Shown here piece after piece: positions 39,719 through 41,842 of a stretch of 64,000 nucleotides of DNA. Both the position numbers and the translations under genes were made by a program. Under the pieces are notes generated by a model. The model did not search any database. It was not told where the DNA came from and was given only the letters and a program-made list of their open reading frames with translations. Origin of the DNA: Leptotrichia sp. oral taxon 498 (GTDB lineage: Bacteria > Fusobacteriota > Fusobacteriia > Fusobacteriales > Leptotrichiaceae); assembly GCF_002240055.1 (NCBI RefSeq), contig NZ_CP016753.1:372001-436000 (forward strand), written 5' to 3'. Each line of letters starts with the position of its first letter. Position 1 is the first letter of the stretch.

Positions 39719-41842
39719 TTAAAATGCAGCATTAAATCCTAATTTTACAGCACTATTTTTATTATCTTGCAATTCATAGGACAATTTTACTCCAAAGTTG
39801 TCTGCAACATTATATTTTAAACCAGCTTCCGCATTTACTCCACCTCTTGAATAAGATAACGGCGCAAGTTCATATCTTGTCAAATGTTCTCTTTCTCTGT
39901 GATAAGATTTTTTAGCAAATCTGCTTTCGTATTCTACATTCCCAAATAAATCAACTTTTCCAAGTGATGTTTCTCCGTAAATACCGACAGTTCCATTTGG
40001 CAAAGTTGTTGATGTTCCTGAAAAGTTAAGTTTGTCAATATCTCCTTCTTTAACTCTTGTAACTCCAAGACCAACATACGGTTTTATGTAACCGTTGTCA
40101 AATAAAAATTTGTAACCTAATTTTGTTGAAAAATCCAAAATTTTTGACTTAAATTCCGCATCACTTATAGCTCCAAGAGTCTTACTTGTTTCAAATCTAT
40201 GCTTATTTGTCGAATAAAGTAAATTTCCAATTAAATCAATGTTGTCATTAAAATCATATTTTCCACTTAATCCAAGCTGATAAGATTTAATTTTTTCTTT
40301 TATATCTTCAAATTTTTCTTTGTAATAAACATTGGATGTGTCATATCCAAAAGTTGTTCCCAAAGTAAATTTACCAAAATCTTTTGATCCGTTAATTAAA
40401 ACACCGTCGCTAACTGAATTATATTTTACATTGCTCTGTTTATCTTTGTATCTATCACCATTGTTATCCAAATATTGAATATCCAACTTATACTGACCAT
40501 CTTTTGTTTTTTCAAGATTTTTTAATGTTGTATTTCTAGCCGATCTTGCTAAATCCAAATCGACTTTTGAACGTGGCATCTCAACTGTAACTTTTTCCGC
40601 CGCTTGATTTTCAGGTGAAAATAAACTTCCAGTTTTTGGAGTAAAGTTATTAACTGTCATCATCAGATCTTCAAAATATGTTGGCAAGTCATCGTAAGCA
40701 TTCGGTGTCGCAGCAGTTGTAATATAAACCAGTCCTGCGTTTCTCTCACGAGATAATTTTATAATTTCTTCATATTGTTCAGGTGTCGCTGAATGAATAA
40801 TATGATAAATTTTATTAGCATTTTCTGGATTATTTTCAAATTCAGAAGTTCTGTTGGCAAAATTATTTATATAATCACTCGCTGAAGTTTCATTTGTAAG
40901 CCAAATATCCGCATATGGTGCAATTGCATCATTAATTCCGGCACCAGGATTTCCTATTACAGTCATATTAGGATATTTAGTTTTGACATATTTATACAGA
41001 TTTAACATATAATTTACTTCATTCTGATTACTTCCGTTCAAAGTTTCATCAAAAAATATACCAGAAATATTATTATTTCCATAAAACTCAACATATTTAT
41101 CAATATCAGCATATACATCGTCAAGATTTCTTGTAAATCCTGTAGTTTCAACATAACCAACGCTCTTTATTCCAGCTTCGTTATTTTTTTGAATCTGTTT
41201 AGTAAAATTGTCATTTACTTGAGTATCAGGTCCATTATTAGGATTTATAATTGCATAAGGAATTTTTCCAGCACCATTTTTCGCAACACTTTCCCAATAT
41301 GGATCTCCGTCTGATGGAGCATGATAAGTAGGCATAAGGAATGTTTGATTTTTAAGTGGTGTTTCTTCGGCTCTATGTTTTTTTGCAAAGCCGCCTTTAT
41401 ATTCGACATTAATTTGAATTAGATCAGGGTCTTCACTGTAATTATTTCGAAATTTTCTGCTGTTATTATTTCTTTTATAATTATAACTAGATATTTCCGA
41501 ATCTTTAGAAGCAATATTTTCTAAATTTTTTGGAGAATCTATAGCAGCTTTTTCATTATAATAATTCTCTTTTTCTTGCTTTACATCAACTGTTTGATTT
41601 TTATTTTTTTTACTTTCAGCTCTTTTATTTTCAAATTCTTTTACACTAATTTTTTCAATTTCAAAATTTTTATTTTCATCGTTATTTTCAAGTTCATCTT
41701 TATTTGAGACAACATTTTCCTCTTCAGTAGCAGTAGAGATGTCATTCATTTCACTATTGCTGTTATCTATTGGTTTTCCATAACTTATTCCTGCGACTCC
41801 AGCCATAATACATGGAATTATTTTTTTTAATTGACTTTTCAT
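39719..41842 (-). CDS. Autotransporter with spherulin-4/Sph3-like glycosidase passenger
   Basis: A 707-aa type Va secreted protein. Signal peptide about 1-22 (GISYG), disordered Asn/Lys/Glu-rich region (about 23-160), a spherulin-4-like domain (about 167-400) with 'FLMPTYHAPSDGDPYWESV', 'YAIINPNNGP', 'GIFFDETLNG' (Asp265-Glu266) and 'ADIWLTNE' (Glu318), and a C-terminal autotransporter beta-barrel (about 440-707) ending in aromatic Phe (FNAAF). Spherulin-4-type enzymes (GH135, e.g. fungal Sph3) cut galactosaminogalactan-type polysaccharides with an Asp-Glu pair and a further Glu. Predicted surface-exposed or released glycosidase; the substrate is unknown. ATG follows GGAGAATTCAACG. Confidence 0.8.
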   Translation of the reverse strand: MKSQLKKIIPCIMAGVAGISYGKPIDNSNSEMNDISTATEEENVVSNKDELENNDENKNFEIEKISVKEFENKRAESKKNKNQTVDVKQEKENYYNEKAAIDSPKNLENIASKDSEISSYNYKRNNNSRKFRNNYSEDPDLIQINVEYKGGFAKKHRAEETPLKNQTFLMPTYHAPSDGDPYWESVAKNGAGKIPYAIINPNNGPDTQVNDNFTKQIQKNNEAGIKSVGYVETTGFTRNLDDVYADIDKYVEFYGNNNISGIFFDETLNGSNQNEVNYMLNLYKYVKTKYPNMTVIGNPGAGINDAIAPYADIWLTNETSASDYINNFANRTSEFENNPENANKIYHIIHSATPEQYEEIIKLSRERNAGLVYITTAATPNAYDDLPTYFEDLMMTVNNFTPKTGSLFSPENQAAEKVTVEMPRSKVDLDLARSARNTTLKNLEKTKDGQYKLDIQYLDNNGDRYKDKQSNVKYNSVSDGVLINGSKDFGKFTLGTTFGYDTSNVYYKEKFEDIKEKIKSYQLGLSGKYDFNDNIDLIGNLLYSTNKHRFETSKTLGAISDAEFKSKILDFSTKLGYKFLFDNGYIKPYVGLGVTRVKEGDIDKLNFSGTSTTLPNGTVGIYGETSLGKVDLFGNVEYESRFAKKSYHREREHLTRYELAPLSYSRGGVNAEAGLKYNVADNFGVKLSYELQDNKNSAVKLGFNAAF

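Follow-up and report, generated by a model that had tools for sequence, protein, structure and literature searches.

Glycoside hydrolase families GH135 and GH166 are retaining α-N-acetylgalactosaminidases, with GH166 leaning more to partly deacetylated stretches, and few bacterial GH135 members have been characterised (PMC12054363). The GH135 nucleophile and acid/base are an Asp/Glu222 pair; the paper prints the Asp as residue 196, apparently a slip (PMC12054363), and the catalytically inactive variant of Aspergillus Sph3 is D166A (PMC8546845). Sph3, an α-1,4-N-acetylgalactosaminidase, works on chains rich in GalNAc and leaves the Pel biofilms of Pseudomonas aeruginosa intact (PMC12345266). 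Aggregation of Streptococcus intermedius was recently shown to depend on a Pel-type GalNAc polymer as its driver. These aggregates, whose Pel is GalNAc-rich, are dispersed by nanomolar Sph3 and by PelA but not by the galactosaminidase Ega3 (PMC12345266). The GH135 family and autotransporter display are each known, and their union is new in that it is absent from the literature searched; we found no description of a GH135 autotransporter under Leptotrichia or spherulin autotransporters or under GH135 in Fusobacteria, which is weak evidence on this point.

We found the two joined in one gene of Leptotrichia sp. oral taxon 498, in a stretch of 64,000 nucleotides that we call the window (Table 1). 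Pfam assigned residues 169 to 396 of the product to Spherulin4 (E = 2e-40; 139.3 bits versus a cut-off of 30.2; profile positions 3 to 238 of 239) and residues 461 to 690 to the autotransporter family (E = 1.1e-18; 68.4 bits versus a cut-off of 26; profile positions 9 to 255 of 255). An NCBIfam search of the 707-aa protein gave zero matches. The signal peptide region has, by eye, a basic start and a hydrophobic core, which are also kept in relatives. The gene is present in a single copy in the 2.15-Mb genome and has no internal stops. By family profile searches, on which our statements about this genome are based, 13 autotransporters lie above the Pfam cut-off, and only this one has a GH135 passenger. 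The 64-kb window contains no Rfam families or tRNAs, and a scan for promoters and terminators around the gene gave nothing usable. A chance frame or a misassembly was ruled out by a homologue in the same genus (G006) that is 90% identical over its full length and has the same architecture and gene neighbourhood.

Table 1. Features of the GH135 autotransporter gene (positions within the window)
Feature	Position	Strand	Basis
GH135 autotransporter gene, 707 aa, ATG to TAA	39719..41842	-	uninterrupted ORF, Pfam
Predicted signal peptide, about residues 1-22 (MKSQLKKIIPCIMAGVAGISYG)	41777..41842	-	read from sequence; model helix 2-17
N-terminal linker, residues 23-163	41354..41776	-	low-complexity, fast-evolving; pLDDT mostly <50
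Passenger, GH135/Spherulin4 β/α barrel, residues 164-400	40643..41353	-	PF12138; Sph3 fold match
D265-E266 codons	41045..41050	-	align with Sph3 D166 (nucleophile) and E167
E318 codon	40889..40891	-	aligns with Sph3 E222 (acid/base)
Linker and pore-type α-helix, residues 401-450 (helix 425-445)	40493..40642	-	model; NalP match
Autotransporter translocator β-barrel, residues 451-707, C-terminal Phe	39722..40492	-	PF03797, NalP 1uyn

Between the window gene and its G006 homologue, the passenger has a dN of 0.025 and a dS of 0.47 (95% amino acid identity). The corresponding values for the N-terminal part are 0.15 and 0.42, and the linker is 72% identical. The low dN of the passenger relative to its dS, together with the 90% identity of the homologue, shows that the gene is under purifying selection. 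The sequence-only reading had proposed an autotransporter with a spherulin-4/Sph3-like passenger. This was borne out by the PF12138 and PF03797 matches, by the predicted fold, and by the comparison with relatives. As a matter of anatomy, we have high confidence in a GH135 enzyme that has a type Va autotransporter as its display system.

Sph3 was the sole significant match in a phmmer search of the PDB (5c5g and 5d6t; E = 3.5e-11). In an AlphaFold2 model computed from an 11-sequence alignment, the passenger forms a confident β/α barrel, with ten-residue blocks of residues 171 to 400 at pLDDT 76 to 97. Comparison of the fold with Sph3 had been named beforehand as a check. Among 1000 PDB chains, the best match of the passenger was Sph3 (Z 26.7, rmsd 2.1 Å, 229 residues); the next non-GH135 enzyme scored Z 16.4, GH191 15.3, and PelA 13.7. 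The passenger has both the barrel fold and the acidic site. The Asp-Glu pair and downstream Glu that had been placed at 265, 266, and 318 are exactly D, E, and E, and they correspond to positions 116, 117, and 172 of the 5c5g chain, which are D166, E167, and E222 in entry numbering. Catalysis by the Sph3 mechanism is likely. In such a retaining mechanism, D265 would be the nucleophile and E318 the acid/base.

Residues 421 to 642 of the model fit the NalP translocator (1uyn; Z 17.1, 187 residues), which is third in the fold list for the full model and is followed by AaaA and EstA. The modeled helix 425-445 precedes about 12 strands. Model confidence is low over the final ~100 residues because the single homologous row available ended short there. 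A barrel-only model from two sequences had a mean pLDDT of 47.9 and weak matches, and we dropped it as support. This type of barrel recurs within the genus Leptotrichia with other, short passengers. In type Va secretion, the protein would first be exported by Sec, and the C-terminal barrel and pore helix would then insert into the outer membrane and pass the enzyme to the cell surface.

The proposed target is a GalNAc-rich matrix polymer, either Pel-like or fungal galactosaminogalactan, that would come mostly from neighbours in the oral biofilm. A galactosamine-containing polysaccharide had been proposed as the substrate from the sequence; "N-acetylgalactosamine-rich" is the better wording, since GH135 prefers GalNAc-rich rather than deacetylated polymer, as the action of Sph3 on S. 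intermedius Pel and not on P. aeruginosa Pel indicates (PMC12345266). That the substrate is a microbial polymer of this kind is reasonably likely. Taken together, we think it probable that this type Va autotransporter carries a GH135 endo-α-1,4-N-acetylgalactosaminidase that cuts mainly the GalNAc-rich matrix of neighbours in the oral biofilm.

The source of the polymer was addressed through the Pel genes. GH135 tracks pelG outside the genus, with p-values that ignore shared ancestry: in the rest of the Leptotrichiaceae (20 genomes), GH135 and PelG occur together in 4 genomes and neither occurs in 16 (Fisher p = 2e-4); in the phylum outside Leptotrichia, pelG is found in 8 of 12 genomes with GH135 versus 15 of 73 without it (p = 0.002); and in Streptococcus it is found in 2 of 3 versus 16 of 281 (p = 0.011). 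The pel clusters seen encode PelF, PelG, and a DUF2194 protein of deacetylase type, and the Leptotrichiaceae pel-cluster proteins scanned contain no known hydrolase domain, whether of GH135 or of another family, so that a separate hydrolase would be useful. These associations would suit an enzyme that trims the GalNAc polymer of Leptotrichia itself for dispersal or release, like the PelA hydrolase in Pseudomonas. However, profile searches found no PelG (PF16933) in the window genome or in 12 of the 13 Leptotrichia species, which leaves room for a different GalNAc polymer. The autotransporter gene adjoins no pel genes and no polysaccharide locus, its flanking genes being housekeeping (M23 peptidase, DAG kinase, GH57), and it therefore falls outside the Pel accessory hydrolases as defined by pel genes in the same genome. 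We regard trimming of the cell's own polymer as unlikely. Since the genome has no Pel exporter gene, the target of the enzyme is probably foreign, and we lean slightly toward a polymer that is mainly foreign rather than the cell's own.

The one Leptotrichia pelG is broken (G010). It lies in two frames (G010:C3:10208-11583; L106:6209-8907) next to an intact pelF-type gene, and it may be what is left of a pel cluster that the other species of the genus have lost. From the co-occurrence of GH135 and pelG elsewhere, we read the enzyme as tied to a polymer of the Pel type, whose synthesis Leptotrichia has lost while retaining the hydrolase. Two observations count against the reading of the window protein as a matrix hydrolase: its gene lies among housekeeping genes, and GH135 also occurs without PelG in Cardiobacterium, a Moraxella-named metagenome-assembled genome (MAG), and Streptococcus sp. 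UBA6071. As a separate observation, fusobacterial PelG proteins (L104:6757-9063 and others) carry about 70 to 600 extra residues in one open frame, and the one extension scanned had no Pfam match.

One or more GH135 genes were found in each of the 13 Leptotrichia species searched. There are three forms: the autotransporter-fused form, in 6 of 13 species; a stand-alone, secreted-type form of about 260 to 280 aa; and a form of 406 to 471 aa with no detectable barrel and an altered domain start. The last form (L071:5611-7017 and similar) occurs in 10 of 13 species. It has no recognisable first domain strand, and its C-terminal ~130 residues are unassigned. The autotransporter form is also present in two other Leptotrichiaceae genera (G017 and G029 in one, G019 in the other). 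It sits among housekeeping genes at a locus that varies between species, and there were no polysaccharide-synthesis neighbours at the loci read. In the alignment with the window protein, 30 of 30 fusobacterial sequences retain the D-E pair and the E, as do the streptococcal, Cardiobacterium, and Moraxella relatives and the three phage proteins aligned; only one distant MAG copy (L078), which reads FFDQ, was seen to depart from this. This conservation is hard to explain without catalysis. It makes it quite improbable that the GH135 fold is a carbohydrate-binding adhesin that grips matrix polymer or host glycan with little or no cutting, even though many autotransporters are adhesins and the other 12 in this genome are mostly very large.

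Beyond the phylum, a scan of genome contigs found domains that are 44 to 50% identical in Cardiobacterium hominis, the Moraxella-named MAG, and the MAG Streptococcus sp. UBA6071. This collection scan used a narrower alignment, because a broad one with Fusobacteriaceae had no stretch conserved enough. Two genomes of the UBA6071 genus (G118 and G240) encode 480-aa proteins that are 52% identical to the window passenger and terminate with an LPKTG or LPETG motif followed by a run of hydrophobic residues and then basic ones; the UBA6071 protein ends in LPQTG. The Cardiobacterium domain is embedded in Ig, LapA, and RTX repeats of a giant protein. Surface display therefore recurs, by LPXTG anchoring of the streptococcal proteins and by inclusion in a giant repeat protein in Cardiobacterium. 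Giant surface-type proteins of the Streptococcus MAG (L076:4876-11730) and the Moraxella MAG (L077:3-7358) join GH135 to a right-handed β-helix and GH20, and their GH135 parts are 64% identical.

The union of GH135 and GH20 in one polypeptide, and the life of Leptotrichia and several relatives in the mouth (also evident from record titles), would suit an enzyme acting on mucin or blood-group α-GalNAc instead of microbial matrix. This reading is very improbable, because relatives are also found in environmental bins and on plasmids of soil Streptomyces and because characterised GH135 members are endo-acting on α-1,4 GalNAc polymers (PMC12054363). An enzyme feeding a GalNAc-salvage set with GH20 was likewise unsupported, as the genus Leptotrichia has no GH20.

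In a maximum-likelihood tree, the G118 and G240 proteins fall inside the group of Leptotrichia autotransporters and 406- to 471-aa proteins (support 97/93 and 98/90), and a single clade (support 100/99) unites the domains of Cardiobacterium, Moraxella, and UBA6071. From sequence, this placement fits lateral transfer with a change of anchor, the direction being inferred from a midpoint-rooted tree and the genome membership of two MAG records being possibly faulty. Exchange is also visible within the genus. The G012 gene (L051) shares 98.4% DNA identity with the G008 gene (L052) in the passenger and 73.1% in the barrel, whereas it shares 65.5% with the window gene in the passenger and 87.9% in the barrel. 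G012 has the gene at the same locus as the window genome, and G008 has it at another. Therefore, the passenger cassette was exchanged between Leptotrichia species while the barrel stayed in place. The passenger type of G012, G008, and G002 keeps D-E-E and differs at N200, the NPG motif, and other conserved positions, so that specificity may vary. Passenger exchange between autotransporters can be put to the test with the GH135 autotransporters. This exchange, the genus-wide retention of GH135 without Pel, and the recurrent anchoring of the enzyme at the surface of oral bacteria are new.

GH135 on differently anchored oral bacteria suggests a shared tool to break the matrix of neighbours. More tentatively, and on balance doubtfully, one GH135 lineage may be an exchangeable surface cassette among oral bacteria of three phyla and among Leptotrichia species, carried by autotransporters, LPXTG proteins, or giant repeat proteins; Leptotrichia would have lost Pel synthesis, kept the enzyme, and turned a self-processing hydrolase against the matrix of neighbours. 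A surface-displayed GH135, in a genus whose searched species all have a GH135 gene of some form, would be a ready candidate for the means by which oral bacteria reshape one another's matrix. The Leptotrichia genes would be a source of bacterial GH135 enzymes.

GH135-like domains were also observed in phage proteins: gene 21 of Rothia phage Spartoi (L095:5725-6813), which is flanked by minor tail and lysin genes; a Streptococcus phage VA460 protein (L096:4842-6131); and a protein of an IMG/VR contig (L080:4743-5612). The first two are annotated as hypothetical. The three are candidate tail depolymerases, which would point to a polymer of GalNAc type on their Rothia and streptococcal hosts.

Among known systems, S. 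intermedius SIR_1591 is likewise a surface-exposed TIM-barrel hydrolase, and it dissolves S. intermedius Pel aggregates; however, it is a DUF4832 protein of the pel operon and belongs to a different sequence family, not GH135 (PMC12345266). The PelA hydrolase domain (GH166) and the GH191/GH114 endo-galactosaminidases share the barrel class and have related substrates. Unlike GH135, the GH166 and GH191 enzymes have a preference for polymer that is more deacetylated (PMC12054363), and the structural match of PelA and GH191 to the passenger is far weaker than that of Sph3. Sph3 shares with the passenger the fold, the triad, and the INP..G and NPG motifs, but it is only ~25% identical, belongs to a fungal galactosaminogalactan cluster, and has no autotransporter barrel. 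EstA (3kvn), AaaA (9oqa), and the NalP translocator have the plan predicted for the window protein, with a C-terminal barrel and pore helix and an enzyme ahead of them. EstA carries an esterase, AaaA a peptidase, and NalP a protease, whereas the passenger here is a predicted glycosidase.
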